Below, piece by piece: positions 7,893 through 64,000 of a stretch of DNA of 64,000 nt. Source of the stretch: an uncultured Bacteroidota bacterium (GTDB lineage Bacteria; Bacteroidota; Bacteroidia; B-17B0; Aurantibacillaceae); NCBI GenBank assembly GCA_937873155.1, contig CALMVZ010000024.1:1-64000 (forward strand), in the 5' to 3' direction. Position 1 is the first letter of the stretch. The number at the start of each line of letters is the position of its first letter. The notes under the pieces are model-generated. The model saw only the letters and a list, made by a program, of their open reading frames with translations. It was not told the origin of the DNA and made no database searches. A program made the translations under genes and the position numbers.

Positions 7893-7903
7893 AGAAGACC
7901 AAC

Positions 7904-9361: not shown

Positions 9362-9404
9362 TGTTTCCAGTTGTGAGACGTATGTCTCCGTTAAATAGTT
9401 ACAG

Positions 9405-9528
9405 TTTGTGGGAATTAAAGAGACTAAAGGGACTCAGGAGACTGAAGGGATTGAAGAGACAAAATAACCTGGTCATTAATCTCTTTTGTCTTTTAGGTCC
9501 CTGAAGTCTCTTCTCTCCCTTAAGTCAG
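9405..9528. repeat. Purine-strand imperfect inverted repeat
   Basis: The left half is rich in GAGACT/GGGACT/GAAGGGA motifs (about 9417-9465). The right half (about 9480-9528) is its imperfect reverse complement (TCTCTTTTGTCTTTTAGGTC, CCTGAAGTCTCTTC, TCCCTTAAG). It fills the whole gap between the serine hydrolase and PspC genes. It is either a MITE-like element or a dispersed intergenic repeat, and encodes nothing. Confidence 0.6.
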
Positions 9529-11397
9529 TTATTTTTCTCCCTTTTCACCTTTATTTCCCTTTTCACCTTTTGTATCAATGTGAATCCCGTTCTCACCAAT
9601 ATTTACATCAGCGTCCTTTGATTTAACATGAATACCGTTCTTATCAATATTCACTTTAGCATCTTCGGCGTGTACATTAATGGCACCAGGTTCTGCGGGA
9701 GTTCCCGGAGGCGGCGGAGGGTTAAGGTGTTGTTGTTTATAAAACTCTTCTTCATCAAAATCCAGGCCTTCACAATCAATACATTCCAGGCCATTTTGAC
9801 CCATTATCCATCGGCGGTCTACCATGTCAGCATCGTAAGTATTGGTAGTATTCTCTATATCGTAAATGATATTCACTAAACTTTTATCAAGGAAAACAAC
9901 CTTACCTCTTGGTACTTTTAAGATCACATCAATTTCCTGCATTCTGAATTTTTCGTTCGCCGTTACAGTGAATATTTCGTTGAATTTTATAGTGCTGTCG
10001 GTTGCATTCAGTTTGTAATCGATATTCTTCGCTCTTTCTACTGCAGCACGTTTATCGGTGCCTCTTGCTTTTTTGATAACATACATTTCAAATCTATCGC
10101 CGGAGGCAGGTAAGATGTTCAGCTTTGCAAATCCGATGATGAATTTTTTATCGTTTGCTTTTGCAACAATATAATCATCACTGTGGCCACCACGTCTCGT
10201 CCTGTGATTACCATGACTGTCGTAATCTTCCAGATCTTCTTCTTTTACATTCAGGTGTTCGTACAATTCTTTGCTGTCAGCAAGGCTTAAATGCAAGGTG
10301 TCGCGGGTAATATTAAGTTGCACAGGTTCTTTTACTTTTCCAACCTCATTAAAATCCTGCCCGGTACTGATCCCTACAAATAATACTGTGATTAAACCGA
10401 TCAGCCAAAAAATACCTGCAGAGATGTTCAACCAACGGTTACTGTAATGGATCTTGAATAATAATTTAACCCCGCCGTAGATCATCATGATGAAAGGAAT
10501 ACCGAAGAATAAACAGATACCGATCAATCCTAAAGTATAATGACTTCTTTCCATAAAGAACAAGTTGATCCAGTCATTCAATTCAGTGTTAGCGCCAACA
10601 ATCGAGAAACCGAATACACTTGAGATCAGTCCTAACATGAACATTACACCGAAGATCAATAAGATCAGGCCAATGATGCGGGCAAAGAATTTAGTAAAGA
10701 GAATTAAAAAATCTTTTATGAAGTCTGCTACTTTTTCAAAAAAATTCTTTGGTACATTTCCATGCTGGTCACGGAGTTCACTTCCGAATTTTTCGGCGCG
10801 TTTTTTAAATTGTTGTGCTTCTTCTTTTACTGTTTTGGATATATTATTGATGTCGATCTTCTCGCCTTTCATTGCTAATTTATCAGCAGTAGTTTTTGCT
10901 TCCGGGATAACTATCCAAAGGATGATATAAACCCATAAACTTAAGCCACCGAAGAAAACCAACAGGAACATAGCTAAACGCACCCAGATCATATCAATAT
11001 CGAAATAAGCTGCGATCCCTGAACAAACACCACCAACAGCTTTATGATCCGGGTCGCGGAACAAACGTTTCTTAACGCCTTCAGTGGTTGTTGTGTATTC
11101 TTCTTCTTCGTTGTTTGATGAAGTTTCGCCGGCTCCCTCTGCAAATTCTTCCGGCTTGCCCATGGTCTCAATAACTGAATCCACATCAGCCATTAATACA
11201 ACTTGTTTAATAGCGCTTGTTTTACCTTGCAGCATTTCAGCGATACGCGCTTCAATATCGCTCATGATCTCGCTGCCGCCATCCGTTTTACTGAAGTAAC
11301 CTTTAATGGTACCCAGGTATTTGCTAAGCTTATCGAATGCATCTTCTTCTATATGGAAAATGATCCCGCTTATATTTATGGTAACTGTCTTGTTCAT
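9529..11397 (-). CDS. Large PspC domain membrane protein
   Basis: A 622-residue envelope protein. Residues 1-95 form a soluble domain. A PspC domain follows at about 108-168 (KKRLFRDPDHKAVGGVCSGI; FLLVFFGGLSLWVYIILWIV). Three or four more membrane helices lie at about 230-340, and a large extramembrane domain occupies the rest. The tail is low-complexity, with repeated D-A-D/K-VNI-[DG]-x-NGIH units and a Pro-rich linker. PspC-type proteins belong to phage-shock/envelope-stress responses. It follows the PadR gene by 24 bases, the usual PadR-PspC arrangement, so PadR probably controls it. Confidence 0.92.
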   Translation of the reverse strand: MNKTVTINISGIIFHIEEDAFDKLSKYLGTIKGYFSKTDGGSEIMSDIEARIAEMLQGKTSAIKQVVLMADVDSVIETMGKPEEFAEGAGETSSNNEEEEYTTTTEGVKKRLFRDPDHKAVGGVCSGIAAYFDIDMIWVRLAMFLLVFFGGLSLWVYIILWIVIPEAKTTADKLAMKGEKIDINNISKTVKEEAQQFKKRAEKFGSELRDQHGNVPKNFFEKVADFIKDFLILFTKFFARIIGLILLIFGVMFMLGLISSVFGFSIVGANTELNDWINLFFMERSHYTLGLIGICLFFGIPFIMMIYGGVKLLFKIHYSNRWLNISAGIFWLIGLITVLFVGISTGQDFNEVGKVKEPVQLNITRDTLHLSLADSKELYEHLNVKEEDLEDYDSHGNHRTRRGGHSDDYIVAKANDKKFIIGFAKLNILPASGDRFEMYVIKKARGTDKRAAVERAKNIDYKLNATDSTIKFNEIFTVTANEKFRMQEIDVILKVPRGKVVFLDKSLVNIIYDIENTTNTYDADMVDRRWIMGQNGLECIDCEGLDFDEEEFYKQQHLNPPPPPGTPAEPGAINVHAEDAKVNIDKNGIHVKSKDADVNIGENGIHIDTKGEKGNKGEKGEK

Positions 11398-51895: not shown

Positions 51896-52032
51896 AGCGT
51901 TTTAACAGGATCTATGCTGTAAATGTAGTAAAAAGGCCTTCTTTTTTGTCAAATTCCTTACATGGGTAACCTAATACCTGATCTGTTATTTAAAATAAGT
52001 GAATGCCAGGCGATATTTGCCCAAAAAAACAA

Positions 52033-52296
52033 ATGACGATTTTTGATTTTGCTAAACTAAAACGTTCCCAACAGGAATTAACAATTCAGGAAGTTGCAGT
52101 GCTTTTTGAAAGTTACATTGAGAAGGATATCCGGGTAACTGTTTATTATATGCCAAGCTTTTTTATTGAAGTAAACACTTGCATGGAAAAGAATGAAATA
52201 ATAGACATCATTCCATACAGGAGAGGCGCAAAAATTGAGAAGGAAAAGGATATTGTGTATAAAGAATTTCGCAATATGTTCCTGCTTGTAGCTTAA
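52033..52296 (+). CDS. Small conserved Bacteroidota protein
   Basis: An 87-residue protein beginning MTIFDFAKLKRSQQELTIQE; related small proteins starting M-T-[IL]-x-[DE]-F-x-x-L seem common in Bacteroidota. It predicts as a short alpha/beta fold with strands VTVYYMPSFFIEVNT and EIIDIIPYRRG. An earlier in-frame ATG (52003) would add 10 residues (MPGDICPKKQ); the later start is favoured by a near-match -7 box (GATATTTG) between the two. Function is unknown. It shares its stop TTAA with the convergent HPP gene. Confidence 0.65.
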   Translation: MTIFDFAKLKRSQQELTIQEVAVLFESYIEKDIRVTVYYMPSFFIEVNTCMEKNEIIDIIPYRRGAKIEKEKDIVYKEFRNMFLLVA

Positions 52297-52847
52297 AACA
52301 ATTTCTTGTAAGGGTAATTCCTGTTCTTCGGAATGTTATTTACTATCAATGCAACGATGAGCAGAATCAGAACTCCGCTCATGACCGGGGAAAGGATATA
52401 ATAAAATCCGAGCGCTTTTATTTTTTCAGAACCAATATTGGCGATCAGTGCTGTTGCGCCCCCTGGAGGATGCATGGTTTTTGTTATTTGCATCGCTACG
52501 ATGGAAAGTGAAACGGAAAGAGCAGAGGAGAGCCATAATTCACCCGGGATAAGTTTGTAAACGCAAACGCCAACTATAGCAGAAATGAAATGCCCGAAAA
52601 TCAAATTACGTGGTTGAGCTAATGGACTATTAGTGGCGCCGAAAATAAGAACAGCCGAGGCTCCGAAAGAACCTATTAAAAAAACAAAGTCCTGTTCTGT
52701 GAATAACCTGCTTTGAATAAAGCCAATGATACCGATCCCTAAAAAAGCACCTATAAAGGTCCAAATGTGATCTTCCGGTTCAACTATGGTTTGCCTGTAC
52801 ACTACATATTTGGCAACGCGGTAACTTCTTTTGATCTTTTGTTTCAT
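52293..52847 (-). CDS. HPP family integral membrane protein
   Basis: A 184-residue protein with four or five membrane helices. The eponymous motif is present as TMHPPGGATALIANIGSEKI near residue 120, and GSFGASAVLIFGATNSPLAQ PRN near 75 is equally typical (the run is split here only for length). Members of this family have been reported to transport nitrite in chloroplasts and cyanobacteria; the substrate here is not known. It is monocistronic. Confidence 0.93.
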   Translation of the reverse strand: MKQKIKRSYRVAKYVVYRQTIVEPEDHIWTFIGAFLGIGIIGFIQSRLFTEQDFVFLIGSFGASAVLIFGATNSPLAQPRNLIFGHFISAIVGVCVYKLIPGELWLSSALSVSLSIVAMQITKTMHPPGGATALIANIGSEKIKALGFYYILSPVMSGVLILLIVALIVNNIPKNRNYPYKKLF

Positions 52848-52906
52848 GTTGTAAAATTATGACATGAAGCAAAGTATAACAAACTTTATAGCTGAATTAA
52901 CCGTAT

Positions 52907-53203
52907 TTATTGCTTAGAAGGACATTTGTGAGTACCATAAGTACAAAATACACAGCAATCTTTTTCGTCGGGATATAACTCCGCTCTGCAATTTGTGCAA
53001 GTGTATTTTAACAGGCACTGATCCGTAGGCATCATTTCTTTTTTCCTGAAATTACATTTCGGACAAGTGATCTCTGATTCTAAAGAAAGTCCGGGAGGGT
53101 TTGTTATTACAGTATCTTTTTGTGGTAATACAGCCTTAGGTGTTTCAGTTCGTGTGCACGAAAAAATAATAAGACATATCAGTAAACTAAAAAAGTAGTT
53201 CAT
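52907..53203 (-). CDS. Lipoprotein with GDCCVxC-type Cys-rich domain
   Basis: A 98-residue protein. The N-terminal lipobox (LLICLIIFSC, Cys17) indicates a lipid anchor. The C-terminal domain has CPKC, CLLKYTCTNC and EKDCCVFCTYGTHKCP, matching the GDCCVxC family (some members are selenoproteins) except that the Gly is replaced by Lys. Such proteins are usually cytoplasmic, so a lipoprotein version is unusual. Its ATG overlaps the TAA of the upstream methyltransferase gene by one base, so an earlier in-frame start at 53239 is rejected. Confidence 0.82.
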   Translation of the reverse strand: MNYFFSLLICLIIFSCTRTETPKAVLPQKDTVITNPPGLSLESEITCPKCNFRKKEMMPTDQCLLKYTCTNCRAELYPDEKDCCVFCTYGTHKCPSKQ

Positions 53204-53955
53204 TATTTGATACGTTTTACTTCTATCATCCAATCCCATGGATAAGGTTTTCCTAAATTCTTCGGCGGATCGGTGAATTCACTGTCCCAACCGAACTCAA
53301 TTTTTTTAATGGCTTCTATCGAAAAATCAGAGGTGTTGAATAAAGTATAAAGTTCCTGGAGCAAATAATGTTTTGTAGGGTGACCGTCGATCGCTACAAT
53401 TCCGTTCTGAATCCAATCCGGATTAAAATGTTTAGGATCCAATTCATCTTTCGGGATCTTATTGACCTTAACTCCATCTTTCCTGTACAGCTTTAATAAT
53501 TGCATGAAAGATAAAGAGGCTGATTCGTAAGAAGGAATAACAATTACTGCCGCTCCTCCCTTTTTTAAACCATCAACAACCGTTTTTAAAATGGCATAGT
53601 TCTTTTTATTGTCATCGCAAATAGCAACATTACAGCAATAAGCAAAATCTGCTTTGGGTACGTTTTGTTTTTTGGTGAGGTCACCTTGTTTTAAAGCAAC
53701 GTTCTTTAATTTTAATTTGGCGGCCTGATCTAATAGTTTTTTGGAGATATCGATACCTATAACTTTTTTAAAATTTGGAGCTAAAAAAGGTAATGCATAA
53801 CCTATCCCGCAACCGAAGTCGATCGCTAATTTATTTTTACCAATGTGTTTCGCAATGTGTTTTTTAACGACATTTTTTTTGTCGGAGTGAAGTACGCTGA
53901 AAATTTCTTTATCGTAATTATAACCTACGGTATCCCAAACTATTTTTTCGTTCAT
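53203..53955 (-). CDS. Class I SAM-dependent methyltransferase
   Basis: A 250-residue soluble enzyme with motif I LAIDFGCGIGYALPFL near residue 46, the acidic loop VIGIDISKKLLDQA and a later DFAYCCNVAICDDNK region. The substrate is unknown. It is translationally coupled to the downstream Cys-rich lipoprotein gene (TAATG). The downstream partner may be relevant if the substrate is a metal(loid), but that is speculation. Confidence 0.9.
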   Translation of the reverse strand: MNEKIVWDTVGYNYDKEIFSVLHSDKKNVVKKHIAKHIGKNKLAIDFGCGIGYALPFLAPNFKKVIGIDISKKLLDQAAKLKLKNVALKQGDLTKKQNVPKADFAYCCNVAICDDNKKNYAILKTVVDGLKKGGAAVIVIPSYESASLSFMQLLKLYRKDGVKVNKIPKDELDPKHFNPDWIQNGIVAIDGHPTKHYLLQELYTLFNTSDFSIEAIKKIEFGWDSEFTDPPKNLGKPYPWDWMIEVKRIK

Positions 53956-53966
53956 AAATGCGGATT

Positions 53967-54000
53967 AAAAAAACTTCCTTCCCCGGTTTGGAGAAGGAAG
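53967..54000 (-). terminator. Intrinsic terminator of the Gly-rich T9SS gene
   Basis: On the minus strand CTTCCTTC-tccaaacccgggg-GAAGGAAG (spacer approximate) is followed by a run of seven T, 10 bases after the stop of the gene at 54011. The A-run on the plus strand is the same T-run. Confidence 0.75.
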
Positions 54001-54010
54001 CCGGAAGATA

Positions 54011-54985
54011 TTATTGTTTCACTAATTTAATTACTGAAGTTGTATTCAGGACCTTTAAAAAATAAACGCCATTTGATAAAGAAGAGAAATCCTGCTCTTC
54101 AATATTCTTTCCGACAAAAATTTGTTGTCCTAATGCATTTACAAATTCATAAACTTCGTTGCCTGTGGCAGCCTGGATGTTTATTTTAGAAGTGAATGGA
54201 TTCGGGAATACAATGACATTACTTTTCGATAATCCGACAATTCCTGTAGAAACTGATGGCCATGAGAAACGCGCTGCACCTCCGCCGCCGTTACCAGGAG
54301 TAGAGCCTACACCGTTTCCGCCGCCTCCGCCACCTCCGAAGAAGCCGCCGTTAGCTGCAGGATCTGTTTGTGTACAACCTGAATTTAAAAAACCTGCGCC
54401 TTTACCGCCTGCACCTACAGGAAAACCGGGACTTGTTCCGCCTGCACCGCCGGGTTGTAAACAATTACTTCCTGTATAAGCCATGCAATTTCCTCCATTG
54501 TTGCCATTTCCCAAAGGTCCCGCTGCAGCGCCACCGCCACCGCCGAAGTAAGTCCAGTAACCACCACCACCTGTACCACCTGTTGTGTTGATCATTCCGC
54601 CTGAACCAACGCCGCCTGCACCACCACCGCCAACCGAAGGATTTGGAACTGTTGTTCCGTTTGCTCCGCCTGTAGCAACAATGTAACCTGTAATGCTTGA
54701 TGTGCCAACAGTAGGGTTAACGCCTGCGCTTCCAACTCTGACAGCTAAAGTGGAACCGGGAACTACAGTGAAAACACCGCCCGCGTATCCACCGCCACCG
54801 CCTCCACCACCGCCGTTGTTAATTCCGCGGCCACCGGCACCCATAACTTCCATCGTCATTGATGTAACACCGGTTGGAATAGTAAAAGTGAAATTTCCTG
54901 AGAAGGAATAGGTCATTGATGAGATCTGTCCTAACGACACATCTGCAAGAAGCGCAATAAAAATAAAAGTGTAAAGTTTTTTCAT
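54011..54985 (-). CDS. Gly-rich T9SS type A sorting domain protein
   Basis: A 324-residue secreted protein. A signal peptide (residues 1-19, ending SLGQ) precedes a short beta domain (FSGNFTFTIPTGVTSMTMEV), a long Gly-rich region (residues about 50-240, with runs of up to nine Gly and GGAGG/GGGGG units) and a T9SS sorting domain (VIFVFP-type start near 245, ending SVIKLVKQ). Gly-rich regions with embedded TGG/VGGGG recall adhesive or flexible spacer proteins. No catalytic motif was seen. Confidence 0.88.
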   Translation of the reverse strand: MKKLYTFIFIALLADVSLGQISSMTYSFSGNFTFTIPTGVTSMTMEVMGAGGRGINNGGGGGGGGGYAGGVFTVVPGSTLAVRVGSAGVNPTVGTSSITGYIVATGGANGTTVPNPSVGGGGAGGVGSGGMINTTGGTGGGGYWTYFGGGGGAAAGPLGNGNNGGNCMAYTGSNCLQPGGAGGTSPGFPVGAGGKGAGFLNSGCTQTDPAANGGFFGGGGGGGNGVGSTPGNGGGGAARFSWPSVSTGIVGLSKSNVIVFPNPFTSKINIQAATGNEVYEFVNALGQQIFVGKNIEEQDFSSLSNGVYFLKVLNTTSVIKLVKQ

Positions 54986-55055
54986 GAGCTTGAATTTATA
55001 AGGTTTGTATTTACTAAGGTAGTAAAGTTTGGGAGTAAAGCAAAAAATATCCGTG

Positions 55056-55189
55056 TGACCTCACCGTCCACCCTGTGGGTGGACTTACTCTCCTCAGAGG
55101 AGAGTATAATCTCTGAACCAAATAGAATCCTGTATTTTTCTCTCCTCAGAGGAGAGTAATATCCGCCCCTGGCGGATAGGTGAGGTTAT
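55056..55189. repeat. MITE-like element with nested palindromes
   Basis: The ends GTGACCTCACC and GGTGAGGTTAT are inverted. Inside are CGTCCACCCTGTGGGTGGAC, two copies of CTCTCCTCAGAGGAGAGTA (about 55090 and 55141) and ATCCGCCCCTGGCGGAT. The element lies in the 200 bp gap between the Gly-rich gene and the acetyltransferase and encodes nothing. Confidence 0.75.
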
Positions 55190-55716
55190 TTGAAATCAGC
55201 CTTCCTTATCCTGTAAACAAAATTAAGATTACAATCCTCTCCAAAGTAATTGATCTCCTGCTCATCAATTTTAACAGCACCTAATCTTTCAATAGCTTTT
55301 TGTGAACGGATATTATTAGCGCCAATGTGGAAAATTACATTATTCACGTATTGGAATGCATGATGTATCATTAACTGTTTCGCTGAAGGATTATATTTCC
55401 CGCCCCAATGACTTCGGATATAAAATGTATAACCTATTGACACTTCACTTTTTTCCGGATCGTGGTCATAGAAACGTGAGCTGCCTATCACTTCGTTTGT
55501 CTTTGCATTATAAATTAAAAATGCGCCTTTACTTTCTATCGCACCTTTAAAATAGTTTTGGAAGACTTCACGTTGCCACCGGTTCTTGTTCGGGTGTTGT
55601 TCCCAGATCAAAGGGTCACTTGCGGCTTTGTATAAAATTTCGAAATCACTTTCTTTGAGCGGAACCAATTTTACAAATTCGTTCTGAAGTGTTGGCTGAA
55701 GATCGAAGTTTGACAT
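55186..55716 (-). CDS. GNAT family N-acetyltransferase (RimJ/RimL-like)
   Basis: A 176-residue acetyl-CoA-dependent acetyltransferase. It has an N-terminal FVKLVPLKESDFEILYKAAS segment, the acetyl-CoA loop region SIGYTFYIRSHWGGKYNPSA and IHHAFQYVNNVIFHIGANNI RSQKAIERLGA (split for length), typical of RimJ/RimL-type enzymes that acetylate amino groups. The substrate is unknown. It abuts the downstream-strand methyltransferase gene with a one-base overlap (TAATG-like) and is likely cotranscribed. Confidence 0.93.
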   Translation of the reverse strand: MSNFDLQPTLQNEFVKLVPLKESDFEILYKAASDPLIWEQHPNKNRWQREVFQNYFKGAIESKGAFLIYNAKTNEVIGSSRFYDHDPEKSEVSIGYTFYIRSHWGGKYNPSAKQLMIHHAFQYVNNVIFHIGANNIRSQKAIERLGAVKIDEQEINYFGEDCNLNFVYRIRKADFK

Positions 55717-56465
55717 TACTTTTTACAAAAATAAATTTCGGTATCCGGTTTCAATCCCATTTTTTTGATCTCAGCTTCATTGCAAAAGTCTGATGTTTTG
55801 AAAATGGAAACTTTAAATCCAGCTGATTCTAATCTCGTCTTATAATCCGTTCCATAAATGCGTTTGTGATCATGATGTCCGAATACTCTCTGGCGTTCAT
55901 CCGGATCAGTTACAGAAGGGTCTTCAAATGTTTCTGTCCTCGAATAATCGATCGGCGCTAAATGAATAGACCAGCCTTCTTTCTTCTGAACACGGTACAA
56001 TTCTTTCATTGCTTTGAGATCGTCATTCACATGTTCTAAAACATGGCTGCTTAATAATACATCAAAAGAATTATCCGGGTATTGAATGTCGGTCATGTCG
56101 ATCTCAACCATTGCTCTCGGAGAACCGATATCGGCAGAGAGGTATTTTAAATTCTTCAATTTGCGGAACACCCTGTAAAAACAATGTTCCGGTGCGAAAT
56201 GCAGAACTGAGAGTTCACTTTTGAAAAAATCGGTCTTACGTTCCAAAAATAACCAAATGGTACGGTGACGGATCCCTGCAGCACATTTAGGGCAGCTTTT
56301 TTCTTTGAATTTTTTGAGACCACTTTTGCAGACAGGACAATGAAATTCTGTTCCTGAGTAACCAATACTTTGAATGCCGAGATAGAAATTTAAAAGCGGT
56401 TCGTAAACTTGTTTGGGTATGAATGCTTTGATCTTATACCAGCTTTTTTTCTCAGTGATCGACAT
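55716..56465 (-). CDS. SAM-dependent methyltransferase with N-terminal zinc-ribbon-like motif
   Basis: A 249-residue enzyme. Residues about 40-75 hold two Cys pairs (FHCPVCKSGLKKFKEKSCPK CAAGIRHRT, split for length) that probably bind zinc. The methyltransferase type 11 core follows, with HFAPEHCFYRVF, YLSADIGS and FDVLLSSHVLEHVNDDLKAM. The HxLEHV motif is typical for the type 11 family. It is first in line before the acetyltransferase on the minus strand. The substrate is unknown, possibly a cell-surface sugar. Confidence 0.9.
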   Translation of the reverse strand: MSITEKKSWYKIKAFIPKQVYEPLLNFYLGIQSIGYSGTEFHCPVCKSGLKKFKEKSCPKCAAGIRHRTIWLFLERKTDFFKSELSVLHFAPEHCFYRVFRKLKNLKYLSADIGSPRAMVEIDMTDIQYPDNSFDVLLSSHVLEHVNDDLKAMKELYRVQKKEGWSIHLAPIDYSRTETFEDPSVTDPDERQRVFGHHDHKRIYGTDYKTRLESAGFKVSIFKTSDFCNEAEIKKMGLKPDTEIYFCKK

Positions 56466-56502
56466 AATGGGGTTCAGCTACCTGTAAATGTACAATTTAT
56501 TA

Positions 56503-56991
56503 TCACTTCTTTTTTATGGGGATATAAAGATCTTCCTCCGACTCAGGATCATTGTTCTTGTATTTGGCACCCATAATGTCAAAATGCGGACGGTCATCAA
56601 GGATATATTCCGAATTCGGGATCCACCGGCTGAAAATGTATTGGAAAATGCTGAAATCCGTATTTAATCCTTTGTAATGGAAAATAGCATAAAGTCCTTC
56701 AGGTACTTGAAATGTTTCCATTCCTTCCGGAATATTACTGAAGTCATTTACTTCCATCAAAGCCCATTTCTCAAACGTATTAGTCGGAGAGAAATTCTTG
56801 AAATAGTCCGGCGAATAAGTTTTCAGGCAAAAAATATCCGAACTGATTGTATTCTTGATCTCATTCCGCTTTGGCATGAAGCCGCTGAATAAAGTGAACG
56901 TTTTATTATCGGCCAGGCTCATGGTTATCCGCTTACCGATTAATTTTTTTGAAGGAATTGTTTTTATTGTAGGTTGGATACTAGTTTGCAT
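56503..56991 (-). CDS. GyrI-like effector-binding domain protein
   Basis: A 162-residue soluble protein made of a single GyrI-like (AraC effector-binding) domain (KTIPSKKLIGKRITMSLADN; MPKRNEIKN; FQVPEGLYAIFHYKG; FDIMGAKYKNNDP). Such domains bind small hydrophobic or cationic molecules and some hydrolyse cyclopropanes. No DNA-binding domain is present. Its 5' end overlaps the upstream SRPBCC gene by 11 bases, so they form one transcript. Confidence 0.92.
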   Translation of the reverse strand: MQTSIQPTIKTIPSKKLIGKRITMSLADNKTFTLFSGFMPKRNEIKNTISSDIFCLKTYSPDYFKNFSPTNTFEKWALMEVNDFSNIPEGMETFQVPEGLYAIFHYKGLNTDFSIFQYIFSRWIPNSEYILDDRPHFDIMGAKYKNNDPESEEDLYIPIKKK

Positions 56992-57373
56992 TTTCGATGT
57001 TCAGGAATAATTGTTTGTGTTGTTTCTCAAAGATCTTTGTCATGATACCTTTTACAGGAAGCGGGGACTTAAAAGAAACTATTTCACGGATGAGGGTATG
57101 GTCATCTTCGCTTTTAATAGTAAAATTCATTTCGATATGTGTGAGTTTCATTACAACCGCTTTAATATTCACGGTTTTATTTTGAGGGTTCCCTGTAACG
57201 GTTGCTGAGTAAGTAAAAGAAACAAAACCTAATTTTTCATAAACTTTGTAAGTGTTGTTCCCAAGATCATCCATTTTGTAAATGATAGGATGGATAGAAA
57301 CAAATTTTTTCATATCCGTTAAATGATCGAACACAACATCAGCTGACTTTTTTATTTTGTGTTCCAGGATCAT
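56981..57373 (-). CDS. SRPBCC (START-like) family protein
   Basis: A 130-residue small-ligand-binding protein of the SRPBCC/polyketide-cyclase fold (VFDHLTDMKKFVSIHPIIYK; TYKVYEKLGFVSFTYSATVT; LIREIVSFKSPLPVKGIMTK). It has no catalytic signature. It overlaps genes on both sides (11 bases downstream, 4 upstream), placing it inside an operon of small ligand-binding and cupin proteins. Confidence 0.88.
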   Translation of the reverse strand: MILEHKIKKSADVVFDHLTDMKKFVSIHPIIYKMDDLGNNTYKVYEKLGFVSFTYSATVTGNPQNKTVNIKAVVMKLTHIEMNFTIKSEDDHTLIREIVSFKSPLPVKGIMTKIFEKQHKQLFLNIENAN

Positions 57374-57708
57374 TTTAAGAAATCGCCATCCACAATTAAA
57401 AGTTTAACACCATTCTCAGAATAGGAGCGGTGAGAGCTTAAATTATCGGAAACTACATAACTTTCGCCTTTATGCAATTTTGTTTTCTCTCCTGTTTTTA
57501 ATTCAGTAATGAAATCTCCCTCCAGGCAATGTACCACATGGCCTTTCTCGCACCAATGGTCGGCTAAATAGCCTTCGCCATATTCTACAATACGGATCCT
57601 TAAGCCTCCTAATTGTACTGTTTGCCAGGTTGAAGTTCCTGTTTCTCCTTTATGTTCAGTTTTAGCGATCGAACTCCAATCGATGGTTGTAAACGGGATA
57701 CTGTTCAT
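57370..57708 (-). CDS. Cupin with DHWC motif (DHCW-type family)
   Basis: A 112-residue single-domain cupin. The segment YLADHWCEKGHVVHCLEGDF near residue 48 carries the motif seen in the DHCW cupin-fold family, with likely metal-binding His residues. It may bind a small polar ligand. Its start overlaps the stop of the upstream NYN gene by one base (TAATG) and its end overlaps the SRPBCC gene by four. Confidence 0.88.
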   Translation of the reverse strand: MNSIPFTTIDWSSIAKTEHKGETGTSTWQTVQLGGLRIRIVEYGEGYLADHWCEKGHVVHCLEGDFITELKTGEKTKLHKGESYVVSDNLSSHRSYSENGVKLLIVDGDFLK

Positions 57709-58448
57709 TATTTTGTTTTTATATAAATGTGTTTGATGTTCCTGTTGCCTGTCTCCCGTTGGTCAATTTCGAAGCGGTTAGTACTTTTAATAAGGGGTAA
57801 TAACTTTGAAAATCCGTAATTCCTGGGATCAAAGTCGGTTTTCTTTTTCAGGATAAAGCTTCCGAGTTCCCCTAAAAAGGTCCAGCCGCTTTCGTCTGCA
57901 AGATCAATTACACTTTCTGTTAAAAGATTGATCAATGCATCATCAACTCTGTTTAAAGGATGGCTTTCTGTTTTTACTTTGTTTGGTTTGCCGGTTTCTT
58001 TTGCTGGCTGTTTTATTGATTTTAAGATCTCTATATAAACGAATTTATCGCAGGCTTTAATAAACGGTGCCGGCGTTTTTTTCTCACCGATACCTATTAC
58101 TTTCATGCCGGCTTCTCTTAAGCGTGTAGCAAGCCTTGTAAAATCACTATCGCTCGATACAATGCAAAAACCATCTACTTTTTCGGAATATAAAATATCC
58201 ATGGCGTCTATGATCAGGGCGCTGTCGCTCGAGTTTTTGCCCGTTGTATAGCTATATTGCTGAATAGGCGTGATCGCGTTTTCAAGTAAAACGTTCTTCC
58301 ATCCGGCAAGAGTGGGGCGGGTCCAATCAGCATAAATTCTTTTTATAGTAGGCGTACCGCTTTTCGCGATCTCTTCTAACATTTCTTTAATGTGGGAATA
58401 AGGCACATTGTCGGCATCAATTAATACAGCGAGGCGCAGGTCGGTCAT
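57708..58448 (-). CDS. NYN domain (DUF88) ribonuclease-like protein with C-terminal LOTUS/OST-HTH domain
   Basis: A 246-residue soluble protein. The N-terminal PIN-like NYN domain has the acidic metal-binding residues in LIDADN (near 10), SSDSALIIDAMD (near 75) and CIVSSDSDF (near 95). A basic linker precedes a C-terminal OST-HTH/LOTUS domain (ESGWTFLGELGSFILKKKTD; YGFSKLLPLI) that binds RNA. The architecture matches the Limkain/DUF88 family of putative RNases. It is the first gene of the minus-strand operon to 55186 and the last gene before the cassette-like island. Confidence 0.93.
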   Translation of the reverse strand: MTDLRLAVLIDADNVPYSHIKEMLEEIAKSGTPTIKRIYADWTRPTLAGWKNVLLENAITPIQQYSYTTGKNSSDSALIIDAMDILYSEKVDGFCIVSSDSDFTRLATRLREAGMKVIGIGEKKTPAPFIKACDKFVYIEILKSIKQPAKETGKPNKVKTESHPLNRVDDALINLLTESVIDLADESGWTFLGELGSFILKKKTDFDPRNYGFSKLLPLIKSTNRFEIDQRETGNRNIKHIYIKTK

Positions 58449-58583
58449 AATATTTTTTTAACACCTAAAGGTAGTTCATTAGGACACCGATTGCAAATCC
58501 GGTAATATCCAGTTAACTGTGTAAACGTAAGAATACTATCCTCGACCCAAAGGTAATATTTTTAGATCTAATTTTATTTTGTC

Positions 58584-58616
58584 TAACGGACAAATGCTGT
58601 TACCACGTCGTAGGGC
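58584..58616. repeat. Collapsed attC-like element A and end of unit 1
   Basis: TAACGGACAAATGCTGTTA (58584-58602) has the TAAC...GTTA ends of the larger elements B and C but only 11 bases between them. The outward sequence GTTACCACGTCGTAGGGC (58599-58616) is the inverted partner of GCCCTATGCGTGGTAAC at 59031-59047. The rest of the 58449-58663 gap contains no ORF. Confidence 0.65.
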
Positions 58617-58663
58617 GCACCTAGTTTACGTCTTGCATACGCGTCTGCAAACCAGCGGAATGT

Positions 58664-58999
58664 CTACTTGATTTTTAGAGGTTGTTTTTGATTTTCTGTT
58701 TCAGGTTCTTTAACGATAATTTGGTGTTTTCCTTCTTCCGGCACTTTCCAAATTATTTTTTGTACAACATTGTCTTTGTAAATTAATGTGTCAGAAGAAC
58801 CGTGTTCGTTTTTTTCTATCCATATGCCTTGCTTAAGTCCGTTTGCGTCAATTAAGTTAATGGTGTCAAACACTCCAGTTTTTTTTGCTTGTATTTCGTA
58901 AGAAGGTCCATTTTGTTGTGTTGCTGCAACACTGTCCTTGTGTTGTTGTCCGCAAGAGAAAAGTAAGATTAAAAATGTTAAAAGGTATAACATTTTCAT
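58664..58999 (-). CDS. Small lipoprotein in cassette unit 1
   Basis: A 111-residue protein with a lipobox (LLTFLILLFSCGQQ, Cys16) and a domain of about 95 residues resembling two or three short beta hairpins (VFDTINLIDANGLKQGIWIE; SSDTLIYKDNVVQKIIWKV). The G-L-x-Q-G-x-W motif recalls MORN/YwqK-type units. I do not recognise a family function. It is the only gene of a unit bounded by 17-18 bp inverted sequences (58599-58616 and 59031-59047). Confidence 0.8.
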   Translation of the reverse strand: MKMLYLLTFLILLFSCGQQHKDSVAATQQNGPSYEIQAKKTGVFDTINLIDANGLKQGIWIEKNEHGSSDTLIYKDNVVQKIIWKVPEEGKHQIIVKEPETENQKQPLKIK

Positions 59000-59030
59000 G
59001 TCAAAAGTTTTTTCATTAAAAAAATTGTCC

Positions 59031-59047
59031 GCCCTATGCGTGGTAAC
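59031..59047. repeat. Inverted end of unit 1
   Basis: GCCCTATGCGTGGTAAC pairs with GTTACCACGTCGTAGGGC at 58599-58616 with one mismatch and a one-base bulge. The last four bases (TAAC) begin element B. Confidence 0.7.
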
Positions 59048-59226
59048 GGTTTCGCGGTTGGCGCAGTTTTTACTTTGCGCTTCCAGAAACCCTTTAATAA
59101 AGATAATGATTTTATTTTGAAACTCTTTCTTAAGGCTAGCGTTTTAAGTTCCGCCGTCGGCGGGCAATTTGTCCGCGCGATGCCCGTGAAGGCGCAAAGG
59201 AAAAATTGTCGCCACGACCCGTGTTA
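59044..59226. repeat. attC-like imperfect inverted-repeat element B (183 bp)
   Basis: It starts TAACGGTTTCGCGG and ends CCACGACCCGTGTTA. The arms TTTTTACTTTGCGCTTCC (59067-59084) and GAAGGCGCAAAGGAAAAA (59188-59205) pair with few mismatches. The whole lies between the lipoprotein gene and the two-gene unit. Its length matches element C. Confidence 0.75.
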
Positions 59227-59235
59227 GTGCCAGTG
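59223..59235. repeat. Inverted end of unit 2, left
   Basis: GTTAGTGCCAGTG pairs with CATTGGCACTAAC at 60843-60855 (12 of 13). The two ends bound the two-gene unit. Confidence 0.75.
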
Positions 59236-59236
59236 T

Positions 59237-60199
59237 TTAGTCCGCAGTAGATTCGAATATAACTTGTTTTCGTAGTTGTCCGAGTTTTTCGTCTGAGAAA
59301 ACAAAAGGCCCCTGAGATTTATTCTCGATGTCTTCTAAAATTTCCTTTATTCTATTAATGGTTTTGATTCTTAAAGTTGTATTTACTTCGTTAACATCAC
59401 TCTCAGTCCAGGATTTTAGGTTTTGTGAAAACCTGGTTAGATAAGATTTATTCTTTATTCTACTTTCAATAATATCGAACTCTTTTTTTAGATAGTCATT
59501 GATATAGTCTAAAGCACTGATTGCAGTGTATTTTCTGTCGAATGTAGAAATTGTCTCATCAAAATTACCAAAGACTTCTTTTACTACTTTTTTTATTACA
59601 GTTCTTTTGTCAACCGCCAAGAGGCTGTCATTTGATTTTGACGGAATTTCCTTAGTTACTACTGGGTCTATATCTTTTTTGACGAACCAGCCGTATTCCG
59701 CAGCAAGTAAAGCTAAGCCAATCAAGACAGGTATTACAATGAGTGTCCAAAATTTTGAGAGCCAAGATTTTTTTGGTTCTATATTTTCACCGTCGCCTGC
59801 CTTAATAAAAAGATCACCGCCCTTTCCACCGAAATGCCCATTACCTGCTTGTATAATTAAATCACCTCCGTCGCCATTAGGACCACCGTCACCTGCTTTA
59901 AAGCTAATGTCCTTGTTCGATTTTGGATTATTTATTTCTTCAAGATACTTGATGCCGTCCGGGAGTATTTTGGCGGAGATTTTATTTGTTTTGTTATTGA
60001 AGCTTGAACCATCAGGGAATAGAAAGTGATATTCACCTGAGGACTTTACTTGAAGCTTCTTTTCTTTAGCCAGTGCCGAACATGCAGATTTAATATTCTC
60101 GGGCTTTAAGTCAGGAAGCTTTTCAGTAATTTCTATAAACTCTCCGTCATGCGAATGTTCTTTAAGAACCGATAATATTTTGTAATAAATGTCATTCAT
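59237..60199 (-). CDS. Winged-helix-like, Gly-rich, single-TM protein of cassette unit 2
   Basis: A 320-residue protein of no recognised family. Residues 1-90 look like a winged-helix domain (YYKILSVLKEHSHDGEFIEI; NIKSACSALAKEKKLQVKSS). Residues about 98-138 are a Gly/Asp-rich repeat (FKAGDGGPNGDGGDLIIQAG; GKGGDLFIKAGDGE). A membrane helix follows at about 150-170 (LIVIPVLIGLALLAAEYGWF), then a helical domain of about 150 residues. Its ATG overlaps the stop of the upstream gene by four bases, so the pair is coupled. The mixture of a putative nucleic-acid or sensor domain with a membrane anchor suggests signalling or defence, but this is inference. Confidence 0.85.
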   Translation of the reverse strand: MNDIYYKILSVLKEHSHDGEFIEITEKLPDLKPENIKSACSALAKEKKLQVKSSGEYHFLFPDGSSFNNKTNKISAKILPDGIKYLEEINNPKSNKDISFKAGDGGPNGDGGDLIIQAGNGHFGGKGGDLFIKAGDGENIEPKKSWLSKFWTLIVIPVLIGLALLAAEYGWFVKKDIDPVVTKEIPSKSNDSLLAVDKRTVIKKVVKEVFGNFDETISTFDRKYTAISALDYINDYLKKEFDIIESRIKNKSYLTRFSQNLKSWTESDVNEVNTTLRIKTINRIKEILEDIENKSQGPFVFSDEKLGQLRKQVIFESTAD

Positions 60200-60831
60200 G
60201 TCTTTTGCACGGGCTTTTTTTCAACGCCAATTAATTCTCTAAAGTCCAACAACAGTTGATCTAATGCGGGTTGAATTTTTTCAGTCACTCTTTCGCCAGC
60301 TTCTTTTGATTTCTCCCATGAGAAATTTGTGCTTGAGCGTAGTTGTCGGGCAATGGTATAATCATGGTAGCTACTAAAATAGTCGCTTTTTATTTTTTCA
60401 ACTTTGGCAATTGTTTCGTGCGGTATGAAAATTTGATTTTCCATATAGAAGTTTAAAAAATCATTGTAGGCTTCGGCTGCTTTATTTATTCTATCACTTT
60501 CCTCTTGTTCAGCGTCTTTAACGATGAGTTTCATCAAAGCTGTCATTTCACGCATAGCTTGATTAAGCTTAGCTAATTTTCGATGAAGTTCAACAACTGC
60601 GTTTAGTTGTCGCTCGTATATTTGAGTTGACTTATAGTTGTGTAAGTTTAATTCAGCTCTATAAAGTTCCATTTTGCTATCTAAGGTCGCCTGAAACTCT
60701 CTCGATTTGTGGTCAAGTTCTGTTTTATAGGTTTCAAATTTCCTATCTGCCGATTTGGAGAGAAGCAATTGAATAAACCACATTGCTAGTCCAAAAATTC
60801 CTATGTCCTTAAGTACGTTTAATATTTCCAT
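60196..60831 (-). CDS. N-terminally anchored coiled-coil protein, partner of the winged-helix protein
   Basis: A 211-residue protein with one N-terminal membrane helix (residues 9-26) followed by a long helical, probably coiled-coil, body (KFETYKTELDHKSREFQATL; LYRAELNLHNYKSTQIYERQ). No catalytic motif is evident. It is the first gene of unit 2 and overlaps the winged-helix protein gene by four bases, which implies a stable two-protein membrane module. No function is assigned. Confidence 0.82.
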   Translation of the reverse strand: MEILNVLKDIGIFGLAMWFIQLLLSKSADRKFETYKTELDHKSREFQATLDSKMELYRAELNLHNYKSTQIYERQLNAVVELHRKLAKLNQAMREMTALMKLIVKDAEQEESDRINKAAEAYNDFLNFYMENQIFIPHETIAKVEKIKSDYFSSYHDYTIARQLRSSTNFSWEKSKEAGERVTEKIQPALDQLLLDFRELIGVEKKPVQKT

Positions 60832-60842
60832 GTCTGTCTATA

Positions 60843-60855
60843 CATTGGCACTAAC
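60843..60855. repeat. Inverted end of unit 2, right
   Basis: CATTGGCACTAAC is the partner of GTTAGTGCCAGTG at 59223-59235. Its last four bases start element C. Confidence 0.75.
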
Positions 60856-61029
60856 GTTTGGCAGCTACTGGCCGTTGGGCTTTCGAAGCATCAACTTTCT
60901 TTTACCTACCAAAGGTTATTTGAAGATACAAATGTTTATTAGCCGCCGCAAATTAAATTTCGCGAAGCGACCTTGTTAATAGCGCGCGGCGATGAGATAC
61001 TTCCGCCCAATGGCCAGTAGGTGCTGTTA
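60852..61029. repeat. attC-like imperfect inverted-repeat element C (178 bp)
   Basis: It starts TAACGTTTGGCAG and ends GGTGCTGTTA. The arms CTACTGGCCGTTGGGC (60865-60880) and GCCCAATGGCCAGTAG (61005-61020) pair at 15 of 16 positions, with extra unpaired bases in one arm as in integron attC sites. The centre holds no ORF. Confidence 0.8.
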
Positions 61030-61040
61030 TAGGCAGTGCA
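61026..61040. repeat. Inverted end of unit 3, left
   Basis: GTTATAGGCAGTGCA pairs with TTGCATTGCCTATAAC at 62794-62809 with two mismatches; the two bound the DUF262 gene. Confidence 0.75.
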
Positions 61041-61045
61041 GAAAA

Positions 61046-62713
61046 TTAATAGTTTATTTTCCAAACAGTCGAAGCTTTATTCGACATGTCGGCTTGTCTT
61101 GAAGAAATGCTAGTTACATTCCAAGTATTATAATTTAGATTTTTACTAGTCAGAACATAATTACTAGTTTGATAAATAGTCGATTTATCCGCAAATGATT
61201 TTCTGTCGGCATCTTTATTTTTTGCAGATTCAAGAAGTGTAAGGTTTCCTAACCTAAAAATATAATCCAATACATCTACGTTCTGAAAATGGTTGGTCCA
61301 CTCGTCAGTTGGAGTCTCGGGTAGAATATGCTCTATTGTTAAATTCTTGTTATTTAACTCTAATTCAGCCCCGCCATATTGTACCTCAAGTTTTGAAAGG
61401 ATATAACGAACGAGTAAATTGTATTTGTTTGTATTAATTTGTTTGTTTTTAAAATCGTTTTTAAAACTGTTGTCATCAATATAGATTTCTTTCAAATGTT
61501 TTCCGAAGAGATCCTTTGAAGTTGTAATTTCATTATTAAAGACTGCTACCGAAGCTTTTCCGTAAACTCTTTCAAGTTCGTTCGGATTAAGTCCCCCGAT
61601 GGTGTTATACCTAAATGAAATGGCAACGATGTCTCGTAGTAATTTCGTAAATTCTTGATCTGAGAACTTCTGTTTTGCAACTAAAATTAAAGGATAACAT
61701 TGAGAAACATCAAGTATGTTTATCTCGTTAATATACTTTGATTGTTCATCAACCCAAATTTCGCTATCTGGATTAGTTAAAGCAGAATATATTAATACGC
61801 CTTCGTCTAGAGCATTGATCATTCCGATTGATCTTTCGTAATTGTCAATTTTCTTTTTTATTGTCTTGAAAAGCGTGGTCTTTCTTTCGGTCGGATAGTT
61901 TTTAGAATTCCAAAAATGTCGGATGTAATTAGTGATATCAGTTTTACCCAAAAGATCATTAATTCGATACCATTTTTTTTCCAGTATTTCGACTTCACCT
62001 TCGGCGTGAGAAAAAACTTTGGAGAACAAATAATTTTTTAATAAGTCAGCAGTTGACAATTTTACGCCTCTCGCATTCAACGTTTCGAATACTTTGTAAG
62101 CGTTAATGTCATCTCCTACCGTAATTGAGGTGAAAAAAAGTTTTTCATCAACCTTTCTACTAATAAAAGCTGCTATGTCTTGGGTAGTACGGCTTTCAAA
62201 ATGCTTTTGAAGCTCGTTATAAAAATATTTGTAGGCTCCTACCAATCTTTTTTCCGATGGCTTTAGTCCAGCCGTATATTGTGGAACTTGTAATTGGAGA
62301 AGTTGAGAAGCGTAAACATAGTCATTGTTTCTGTTTAGCTTTAATTTAGTCTTGTGGATAAGAGAAGACGGTTCTTTATAACTTAAATAAGTGTTTCTTA
62401 ACAAGTCTGATCTTTCAGAATCTCCTCTGTCTTGTAATAGTTTAACGGCTGCAATTACCAAAGTGCTAATTGTGGTTATCCTTTGTTGACCATCAATAAT
62501 CAAGAATTTTTTACTTTCTTTTGTCTCTTGTAGAACAACGTAACCCATGTAATGATCACCTTCTTCGTCTAATCCGATCAGGTCTAGCCAAAGGTCTTCC
62601 CATTCTTCTTTATCCCAACTATAGTCACGTTGAAACGGGGGTACTTCGAAAGTTCTTCCGTTGCCAACTAGACCGCCAAAAGTCGGTTGTTCTTGTTTCA
62701 ATAGAGTAGACAT
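61046..62713 (-). CDS. DUF262/DUF1524 (GmrSD-type) restriction-like nuclease
   Basis: A 555-residue protein. The N-terminal DUF262 domain has FQRDYSWDKEEWEDLWLDLI near residue 27 and the nucleotide-binding motif DGQQRITT near 74. The C-terminal DUF1524 HNH-like domain has LTIEHILPE near 455 and LGNLTLLESAKNKDAD. Both halves are in one chain, as in GmrSD-type enzymes that restrict DNA with modified cytosines. A defence role against phage or plasmids is likely but not shown. It is the sole gene of unit 3. Confidence 0.93.
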   Translation of the reverse strand: MSTLLKQEQPTFGGLVGNGRTFEVPPFQRDYSWDKEEWEDLWLDLIGLDEEGDHYMGYVVLQETKESKKFLIIDGQQRITTISTLVIAAVKLLQDRGDSERSDLLRNTYLSYKEPSSLIHKTKLKLNRNNDYVYASQLLQLQVPQYTAGLKPSEKRLVGAYKYFYNELQKHFESRTTQDIAAFISRKVDEKLFFTSITVGDDINAYKVFETLNARGVKLSTADLLKNYLFSKVFSHAEGEVEILEKKWYRINDLLGKTDITNYIRHFWNSKNYPTERKTTLFKTIKKKIDNYERSIGMINALDEGVLIYSALTNPDSEIWVDEQSKYINEINILDVSQCYPLILVAKQKFSDQEFTKLLRDIVAISFRYNTIGGLNPNELERVYGKASVAVFNNEITTSKDLFGKHLKEIYIDDNSFKNDFKNKQINTNKYNLLVRYILSKLEVQYGGAELELNNKNLTIEHILPETPTDEWTNHFQNVDVLDYIFRLGNLTLLESAKNKDADRKSFADKSTIYQTSNYVLTSKNLNYNTWNVTSISSRQADMSNKASTVWKINY

Positions 62714-62792
62714 AAGTCAAAGATAATGAATTTTTGGAATCTTCTGTTTGCAGTCTAGAAACCAAGCGATTACACAGTGTTTAATCGGTCCT

Positions 62793-62835
62793 GTTGCATT
62801 GCCTATAACTAGTGGATTGGCGCCACAAACAAATG
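62793..62835. repeat. Partial attC-like element D and right end of unit 3
   Basis: GTTGCATTGCCTATAAC is the inverted partner of 61026-61040. Beyond TAAC follows TAGTGGATTGGCGCCAC, matching in reverse the GGCGCAGT/GCGCCAA arm region of element B, but the second arm is missing. The island therefore ends here, next to the RNA methyltransferase gene. The rest of the gap to 62890 contains only short AT-rich palindromes (AAGCGCTT). Confidence 0.6.
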
Positions 62836-62890
62836 TTTACAAATGCTTATAAGCGCTTATCCTGTTTTGTAAGATTAAATATACAAAAAT

Positions 62891-64000
62891 TTATTCCTGC
62901 TTTGGCTGTAGCTTATGAATTTTCTTAGTGCCTGCGTACATCTCAAATTTAAAGAGGCGGCATTCGAGGGAGCCGTTGAAGAGCGTTATTTTGCGGGTAG
63001 GACGGAGGCCGATGAATTTAGCGGCATCGAGATTGGATGTGATGATCCAGCAGGTCCAGCCGCTGAAATCTTTTTTTAGTTTGTCGCCGATGTGTTTGTA
63101 GAAATCAGCAATGTCTTCTTTCTTCATCCGTTCATCGTAAGGAGGATTCAACAGAACTGTTCCCATTGGTTTATCTACTTTCACATCAAAGAAAGATTTA
63201 CGTGTGAATTTTATAGCATCATCCACTTTCGCAACAGCTACATTCACTTTTGCAACATTCAGGCTTTTATCTGAGATATCATTCGCAGTAATATTAGGAA
63301 TATCTTCTTTAATTCTGCTTACAGCCGATTCATATATGGTATCGTATAATTTCTCATCGTAATTCTTCCAGCGCATGAAACCGAATTCTTTCCTGAAGAT
63401 ACCTGCCGGAATATTTCCGGCGAACAAAGCTGCTTCAATTGCTAAAGTGCCACTTCCACACATCCCATCGATCAAAGGTAAATGCGGCTGCCATCCGGAA
63501 ATAAGAACAATTCCTGCTGCTAAAACTTCTTTGATAGGCGCTTCAATAATATCTTCACGGTAACCGCGCTTGTATAAAATATCGCCGCTGCTATCTAGAC
63601 TAACGCTTACATCATCTTTAAAGATGTGAACGTAAATACGAAGTGTAGGAGCTTTCAGGTCAACACTCGGACGTTTATCCCCGCTAATTTCCCTGAAGCG
63701 GTCACAAATAGCATCTTTTGTTTTCTGTTCTACATATAAACTATGCTGGAAATATTCTGAATTCGGAACCCCTTCAACTGCTAATGTATCCGTCACTTTC
63801 ATGAAATCATCCCAGGGGAATTTTTTCATGCCATCGTACAATTCCTGGTCACTGCTTGCTTTGAATTTGAAGATCGGGATCAGAACACGTAAAGCTACAC
63901 GTGAACATAAATTCACTTTGTATAAATATCCAAGATCTCCTGTAACAGAAACACCGCGTTTGAACGGTTCGATATTCTTTCCTCCCAAACGTAAAAGTTC
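62891..64000 (-). CDS. THUMP domain class I SAM-dependent RNA methyltransferase (RlmL type), 5' end outside window
   Basis: About 370 residues are visible. The frame is open to the window edge (ELLRLGGKNIEPFKRGV), so the true start lies beyond 64000; an apparent start at 63988 is only an internal TTG. A THUMP-like domain precedes the methyltransferase with motif DGMCGSGTLAIEAALFAGNI and the NPPY motif (VLLNPPYDERM) that targets an amino nitrogen of a base. RlmL/RlmKL-type enzymes make m2G in 23S rRNA. The final residues (TKKIHKLQPKQE) are basic. Confidence 0.93.
   Translation of the reverse strand, partial: ELLRLGGKNIEPFKRGVSVTGDLGYLYKVNLCSRVALRVLIPIFKFKASSDQELYDGMKKFPWDDFMKVTDTLAVEGVPNSEYFQHSLYVEQKTKDAICDRFREISGDKRPSVDLKAPTLRIYVHIFKDDVSVSLDSSGDILYKRGYREDIIEAPIKEVLAAGIVLISGWQPHLPLIDGMCGSGTLAIEAALFAGNIPAGIFRKEFGFMRWKNYDEKLYDTIYESAVSRIKEDIPNITANDISDKSLNVAKVNVAVAKVDDAIKFTRKSFFDVKVDKPMGTVLLNPPYDERMKKEDIADFYKHIGDKLKKDFSGWTCWIITSNLDAAKFIGLRPTRKITLFNGSLECRLFKFEMYAGTKKIHKLQPKQE

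Follow-up and report, generated by a model that had tools for sequence, protein, structure and literature searches.

An integron-type cassette carrying two overlapping genes for predicted membrane proteins in an uncultured Bacteroidota bacterium

A two-gene cassette in a three-cassette array

We analysed a window of 64,000 nucleotides from an uncultured Bacteroidota bacterium, in which two genes, B and A, follow each other on the minus strand and share four bases (Table 1). A sequence-only reading of this DNA had described the overlap, and both this four-base overlap, which reads ATGA, and the two open reading frames were recovered where it placed them. The overlap and the same-strand order imply that B and A are expressed jointly in this genome.

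Table 1. Coordinates of the two genes, their cassette, the adjoining cassettes and attC sites, and recombinases of related genomes (L numbers are loci; all other positions refer to the window).
Feature	Position	Strand	Remarks
Gene B	60196..60831	(-)	211 aa, upstream member of the pair
Gene A	59237..60199	(-)	320 aa, downstream member of the pair
ATGA overlap	60196..60199	(-)	4 bases, B stop plus A start; putative translational coupling
A+B gene cassette	59047..60855	(-)	from GTTAGTGCCA (60855-60846) via its own attC to the next crossover G (59047)
Upstream GmrSD cassette	61026..62809	(-)	ends GTTATAGGCA (62809) and TGCCTATAAC (61026), around gene 61046-62713
Downstream cassette	58599..59047	(-)	ends GTTACCACG (59047) and CGTGGTAAC (58599), around a 111-aa lipoprotein-like gene, 58664-58999
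attC of the GmrSD cassette	60846..61035	(-)	190 nt, fold z -2.7
attC of the A+B cassette	59041..59232	(-)	192 nt tested, fold z -3.2
Promoter-like element TTGC-N19-TATCTTCA	60921..60951	(-)	inside the GmrSD attC, points at B
TATCTTTA box	59098..59105	(-)	inside the A+B attC; no TTGC at the usual spacing
attC loops with the looser box	60921..60951	(-)	in the window; further loops in L100, L102, L104, L105, L108, L112, L113, L118, L119
Tyrosine recombinase	L024:11414-12457	(-)	beside an attC-type cassette array
Tyrosine recombinase	L100:7629-8777	(+)	beside an attC-type cassette array
Tyrosine recombinase	L086:329-1372	(+)	beside an attC-type cassette array

The two genes are enclosed by the ends of one cassette. 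Read on the minus strand, it opens with GTTAGTGCCA (60855) and closes with TGGCACTAAC (59223), each the exact reverse complement of the other. The complementary ends of this cassette and of the cassettes adjoining it measure 10, 10 and 9 bp for the three adjacent cassettes. None of 5000 dinucleotide shuffles of the four gene gaps reached all three end pairs, and the end pairs of single cassettes were reached with frequencies of 0.001, 0.0036 and 0.007 in 5000 such shuffles. Counted over the whole 64 kb, end pairs are near chance (a k=10 chain of two in 27 of 200 shuffles, a k=9 chain of three in 34 of 200), so that the significance comes from the placement of the ends in the gene gaps.

The attC sites of the GmrSD and A+B cassettes fold (Table 1), and about 1.6 kb lies between them; the CALIN definition requires at least two attC sites less than 4 kb apart (PMC9668308). 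The attC after the lipoprotein-like gene has no fold better than its shuffles (z 0.08). In this last site (58581-58607, minus strand) a proper left end is followed by GTTAGAC just about 11 bases on, and it has probably decayed by internal deletion. With integron cassettes and CALINs the array shares complementary ends with a G^TT core, foldable attC sites, a single orientation of all three cassettes and, in relatives, homologous attC sites close to a tyrosine recombinase; it differs from them in the length of its attC sites, about 190 nt, and in that no integrase, a gene which a CALIN does not require, was detected in its own genome. A+B is thus one two-gene integron-type cassette in a three-cassette array, and the claim that the pair forms a single cassette unit is borne out by the complementary ends, the attC folds and the similar attC sites of relatives. 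As the first step of a proposed mechanism, a mobile unit of this integron type can be assumed with near certainty, given that its ends pair, that its attC folds and that relatives have homologous attC sites next to a recombinase.

The gene of the upstream cassette encodes a protein with both GmrSD domains (Pfam) that matches the PADLOC family HEC-06 at E 6.2e-190. GmrSD_N is the former DUF262, and the DUF262 nuclease noted earlier beside the pair is a GmrSD/HEC-06 protein that does adjoin it, in a separate cassette of its own. We note that a complete GmrSD (HEC-06) gene rides an integron-type cassette here. Just outside the array, at 56503-58448 on the minus strand, lies a tight run of overlapping genes that includes an NYN-LOTUS protein and a Cass2/GyrI-like protein (Pfam 'integron-associated effector binding protein'), with cupin-like and START-like genes, both named by eye, between them. 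Further on, at 55058-55186, a large imperfect inverted repeat with 53-nt arms (72% complementary) and two copies of CTCTCCTCAGAGGAGAG separates genes for a Gly-rich protein and an acetyltransferase-like protein, both also named by eye.

Two predicted membrane proteins of no known family

We compared A and B with several family and structure collections. Neither protein reached a curated cut-off in Pfam (best E 0.0016, for A) or in NCBIfam, where A had no match at all and B one at E 0.03 at best, and neither matched a PADLOC family (best E 0.011 and 0.014). PHROGs gave nothing significant for either (0.03 at best), no PDB chain matched A or B at E <= 1, and a PDB search with the Gly-rich stretch of A gave no match. 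A back-translated pattern search for near relatives of A and B found none in the genome contigs or in viral contigs, a phage search found no match to B, and a plasmid search found none to A or to the A-like protein of L021. At the RNA level, Rfam gave two matches over 52000-64000, each under the gathering score of its family. The earlier statement that no named system holds this pair agrees with the result that no known family covers either protein in Pfam, NCBIfam or PADLOC.

Protein B has one N-terminal hydrophobic segment at about residues 6-24 and is helical in the remainder, the sequence-only reading having described an N-terminally anchored coiled coil; the structure model is all helical as well (pLDDT 58, pTM 0.48), and the C-terminus carries an FRELIG motif that is partly common to the B family. 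Because the flank following the hydrophobic segment contains four Lys/Arg residues and the preceding flank none, the positive-inside rule predicts that the body of B is cytoplasmic.

For protein A, the Gly/Asp repeats, the membrane segment and the helical C-terminal domain of the earlier description were all found, while its winged-helix-like fold is no more than plausible. The AlphaFold2 single-sequence model has a mean pLDDT of 39 and reaches 51-75 in the N-terminal domain only (means of 10-residue blocks), where residues 2-75 form three helices and four short strands. A profile of A matched winged-helix Z-alpha domains weakly (E 0.09-0.12), behind its best PDB match, a 'ToxA protein' at E 0.018; these matches make a winged-helix-like domain at residues ~1-77 plausible but unproven. 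Foldseek gave no match with E < 0.2 for the A and B models, both of them poor, and none at E <= 0.001 for the A model. The Gly/Asp repeats follow the unit D-[LI]-x3-AG[DN]G, starting at residues 97, 113 and 129 (span 97-137). One hydrophobic segment, the putative membrane helix, lies at about 146-168, and the C-terminal domain is all-helical in the model and 34% charged. The charges flanking the membrane segment of A are balanced (3 and 3) and favour neither orientation.

By hydropathy, the pair is firmly predicted to be membrane cargo of no known family on a single cassette. Judged from charge and hydropathy, the inner membrane would quite likely anchor both proteins: B through its N-terminus, leaving the helical body in the cytoplasm, and A through its middle membrane helix, with the winged-helix-like domain probably cytoplasmic.

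A probable integron-like platform with promoter-like elements in attC loops

The window's own genome, a draft of 39 contigs that could miss such a gene, has no integron-integrase match over the cut-off of TIGR02249. Among 87 genomes of the window's family, 58 encode tyrosine recombinases of one lineage (E <= 1e-60, 39-73% identity), and six of the seven other species of its genus carry a member; in the window's own genome no relative was found at E <= 1e-60 (best E 3.5e-30, 35%). That genome does hold three adjacent pairs of tyrosine recombinase genes on contig C18 (at ~8.4-9.9, 15.9-17.2 and 53.9-55.7 kb), which perhaps belong to another mobile element.

In the relatives, recombinases of the lineage stand beside attC-type cassette arrays (Table 1). 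Seven of them scored 202.6-210 bits on the TIGR02249 integron-integrase model, whose cut-off is 265, so that none of the seven passes and, by score, the recombinases of this lineage are not IntI; on NF040815 they scored 212.7-224 against a cut-off of 220, which two of the seven pass. The IntI model yields two matched stretches in these proteins, the better of which ends at model position 174-179 of 315. This end point and the protein lengths suggest that the middle of the model, and with it the IntI-specific additional domain (near patch III), may be missing. The recombinase points in the same direction as its cassettes in L024 and L086, judged by open reading frames, and in L100, L102 and L113, judged by the orientation of matching attC sites. 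A classical intI gene is usually directed away from its cassettes. The lineage therefore differs from integron integrases in scoring below their cut-off and in being co-directional with the cassettes wherever direction could be determined.

The attC sites of the window have counterparts in these loci. That of the GmrSD cassette aligns with an attC of L113 (genome G024), located about 1 kb downstream of the recombinase; in this comparison, made without shuffles, the right end is identical in 54 of 59 alignment columns and the left end in 29 of its first 32. It also matches an attC of L100, from a congener (G053) in which the recombinase is followed by the cassette chain that contains the matching site; here one arm agrees in 21 of 23 bases and the other in 22 of 25, more than in any of 100 shuffles. 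The right arm of the A+B attC is identical at 18 of 20 positions to an attC of a second congener (G052, L102), and no relative's attC matched its left arm above shuffles. Altogether, five of 24 arm-by-locus comparisons exceeded every shuffle.

Distant relatives of A occur in the same setting. The first 175 residues of A are 33% identical to a protein of genome G425 (E 7.5e-5, a match to the first half of A). The gene for this protein occupies a cassette by itself, in an array whose cassette ends follow the same pattern, and a tyrosine recombinase of 347 aa lies alongside. In genome G728 another A-like gene comes immediately after a recombinase of this kind. The G425 protein has the membrane-segment motif of A and, like A, travels on a cassette, but both proteins lack the Gly/Asp repeats and the C-terminal domain of A, and no B lies nearby.

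These observations make it likely that the array belongs to an integron-like platform of Bacteroidota, with a recombinase that was not detected in the window's genome. For Bacteroidetes, IntegronFinder 2.0 is described as having at first found integrase-only elements alone and later one complete integron, in Salinibacter (PMC9024848); Bacteroidota are among the phyla listed with integrons (PMC8618304), and intI was recorded for the Bacteroidetes/Chlorobi group in a survey of 2008 (PMC2426708). Among the open-licence literature we found no paper on the platform described here. The recombinase family is possibly an overlooked Bacteroidota integron class, with attC recombination as its predicted activity.

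The loop of the attC preceding B contains a promoter-like element, TTGC-N19-TATCTTCA, which runs from 60951 to 60921 and ends 90 nt upstream of the B start. Promoters of Bacteroidota have the motifs TTTG and TAnnTTTG, which the attC element resembles. In the window array and six recombinase loci, the strict form with TTGC, N19 and the box occurred eight times, in every case on the cassette strand; one of the eight matches (L100, 1740) lies outside any evident attC. Both strands of the rest of the window held three occurrences, and 92.7 kb upstream of the recombinases' ends held none. In 20 further loci, where many contigs end soon past the recombinase, the strict form was split two to two between the strands, and one of the two (L121) again lies outside any evident attC.

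We also used a looser test, devised after seeing the data and shaped by the strict one, which requires TATCTT[TC][AG] to be followed by CGTTA within 40-110 bases. Across 26 recombinase loci it gave 13 matches on the cassette strand and none on the other, namely 8 vs 0 in the six loci where the pattern had first been noticed and 5 vs 0 in the remaining 20. Elsewhere in the window the two strands had 0 and 2 matches. The box alone occurred 20 times on the cassette strand and four times on the other. The recurrence of the element suggests that the pair is probably transcribed from the promoter-like element in the upstream attC, the strict form of which was not reproduced in the 20 further loci. 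As a second step of the mechanism, we consider it rather probable that transcription would start from this element and run through B and then A, with translation coupled at the ATGA. Cassette-borne promoters are known in other integrons (PMC8876359, PMC11014356), and in the portions of these two papers that we drew on a promoter built into an attC was not found.

Company of the relatives and possible function

Relatives of B are scattered. Within Bacteroidota they were found in one of 86 other genomes and in two of 394 in another set. A profile built from five members matched four of 294 genomes, one at just 3.6e-4 and one already in the profile, and a nine-member profile matched three of 86 genomes, again with one already in the profile. 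In the genus of genome G170 the nine-member profile matched 26 of 249 genomes, 16 of them at E <= 1e-20; two of these 16 were already in the profile, and the loci of all 16 were included in the analysis together with two weaker ones. Outside the phylum, a Synechococcus plasmid carries a partial relative (E 2e-5), reached via another member, and the Haloferax mediterranei plasmid pHME132 a full-length one (L006:4974-5561, plus strand; 26%, E 3e-13 by tblastn), which suggests a cross-domain transfer of the family. Family members have an N-terminal hydrophobic segment, long helices, a C-terminus resembling FR-x-L-x-G and a single invariant column. B thus belongs to an unnamed, scattered family of membrane-segment-plus-helix proteins.

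The sequence-only reading had treated A and B as a coupled module and had named pairs that never co-occur outside this locus as an observation that would count against it. Within the loci searched, the pair is known only from the window and appears not to be conserved as a module. None of 24 B loci contained a real A relative by the A profile (a match in L080 at E 0.0072 was taken as noise), and none of the four A-like loci contained a B relative by the B profile, over 20 kb for one of them and 3.2-3.3 kb for the other three. Within this limited sampling the pair did not co-occur elsewhere, which weakens the module, although the four-base overlap argues for joint expression. Two of the A-like loci matched in part only, L087 in the linker and membrane segment and L088 in the N-terminal part (E 1.4e-4). 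Five other candidate relatives of A were dropped: L004 (G080), L005 (G001) and L022 (G193), in which the chance match covers part of a longer, apparently unrelated protein, L023 (G280), likewise attributed to chance, and L089 (G769), a protein with multiple membrane segments.

It is conceivable, at less than an even balance, that A and B are cassette-mates and nothing else: B a self-sufficient membrane-segment-plus-helix protein, A a self-sufficient winged-helix membrane protein, with no joint mechanism and an overlap that reflects compactness. The A-like loci lacking B fit this explanation, as does the by-eye observation that most B relatives in the 24 loci stand alone between housekeeping genes, with tandem copies in two loci. 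Coupled expression, as implied by the ATGA overlap and the same-strand order, and the membrane anchoring of both proteins by hydropathy argue against it.

In four loci a B relative stands directly beside a specific defence gene. In L019 (genome G170) the immediate neighbour of the B relative is AriA-like and the next gene AriB-like. The B relative, the AriA-like ATPase and the AriB-like DUF4435 gene form one row there (7707-10555, minus strand), possibly a three-gene PARIS variant with a membrane protein. The B relative of this PARIS-like locus lies 58 bases upstream of the pair and on its strand, whereas the A+B genes of the window have no adjacent AriA or AriB; to our knowledge, B is no component of PARIS as defined. 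Other B relatives directly adjoin TIR-TM, DUF3800_VII and PD-T7-1 genes, the last being one system of an E. coli selection study (PMC9519451).

The ten neighbours of the first PADLOC look had been chosen by eye; its even-handed version compares the 38 genes next to B relatives with 50 control genes lying four or more genes away. It covered 19 of the 24 loci (L038, L039, L036, L006 and L020 were dropped, mostly for less sure calling of open reading frames). Among the matches listed, which for the neighbours comprise 25 of 43 families, and by a division of PADLOC families into specific and generic that is our own judgement, specific defence genes made up four of the 38 neighbours and none of the 50 controls (one-sided Fisher test by hand, ~0.03). 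Generic matches of the ATPase, helicase and methyltransferase type were present in neighbours and controls alike. One control gene matches an AriA model at 8.7e-9 and was taken as generic; if it is counted, the comparison becomes 4/38 vs 1/50 (Fisher ~0.11). The enrichment near defence genes that had been proposed as a check was thus seen for B relatives, but is weak and depends on this one control.

Based on the neighbouring GmrSD cassette, the company of the B relatives and the share of defence cassettes elsewhere, phage defence is our leading guess for the function of A+B, a tentative one. The idea that defence is plausible gains from the B relatives placed directly beside AriA/AriB-like, TIR-TM, PD-T7-1 and DUF3800_VII genes and loses by the weakness of the enrichment; against it also stands that A and B have no known effector domain and no PADLOC family, that the pairing is not conserved in the loci searched and that B relatives, by eye, are mostly solitary among housekeeping genes. 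Integron cassettes that confer phage defence number at least 16 of 179 in V. cholerae and nine of 57 tested in V. parahaemolyticus, as reported in PMC12409362. The defence cassettes of sedentary and mobile integrons described there (Darracq et al. 2025 and a concomitant study, via PMC12409362) likewise include small uncharacterised cargo beside a restriction-type cassette; A+B differs from them in belonging to another phylum, having no known defence family and being known from sequence alone. In the last step of the mechanism, which is speculative, A and B may act as a membrane-tethered defence pair in which the helical body of B serves as an oligomeric scaffold or effector and the N-terminal domain of A senses infection, through nucleic acid or protein, and gates B. 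Taken jointly, the integron-type cassette and such a defence pair are a shade less probable than the defence pair by itself.

Two other functions were weighed against phage defence. A signalling pair for membrane or envelope stress, with A as a membrane-tethered winged-helix regulator, B as its partner and no relation to phages, appears rather unlikely. A winged-helix-like domain on a membrane anchor does resemble membrane-tethered regulators, but the defence genes adjoining B relatives and the restriction-type gene in the neighbouring cassette speak against signalling. The membrane is the commonest reported location of cassette products (PMC8618304), which would suit a signalling pair. Some two-ORF cassettes encode toxin-antitoxin pairs (PMC8618304); together with the overlap of the two genes, this would suit a toxin-antitoxin-like function in which A and B stabilise the array, one of them being a harmful membrane protein and the other neutralising it. 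We regard this last function as very unlikely: neither protein belongs to a toxin or antitoxin family at the curated cut-offs of Pfam and NCBIfam, and B relatives usually have no evident partner by eye. Both A and B are also large for a type II toxin-antitoxin pair.

Phage defence, our leading guess, also enters the widest form of the proposal. It would give this Bacteroidota lineage an integron-like platform of its own, with a co-directional recombinase that lacks the IntI-specific domain and attC sites as long as ~200 nt, many of them with a promoter-like element in the loop that expresses the following cassette, and it would make A+B a previously unrecorded membrane-anchored phage-defence cargo; that all of these parts hold together seems quite unlikely.

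If the platform is an active integron, cassette shuffling would be common across this Bacteroidota family yet go unnoticed, since the recombinase falls under the integron-integrase cut-off, and attC sites with promoters of their own would allow each cassette to be expressed wherever it lands. The A+B cassette would then provide a concrete, testable cargo of unassigned role whose neighbour is a restriction-type cassette, and the B family a starting point for finding membrane proteins that occur alongside defence genes.
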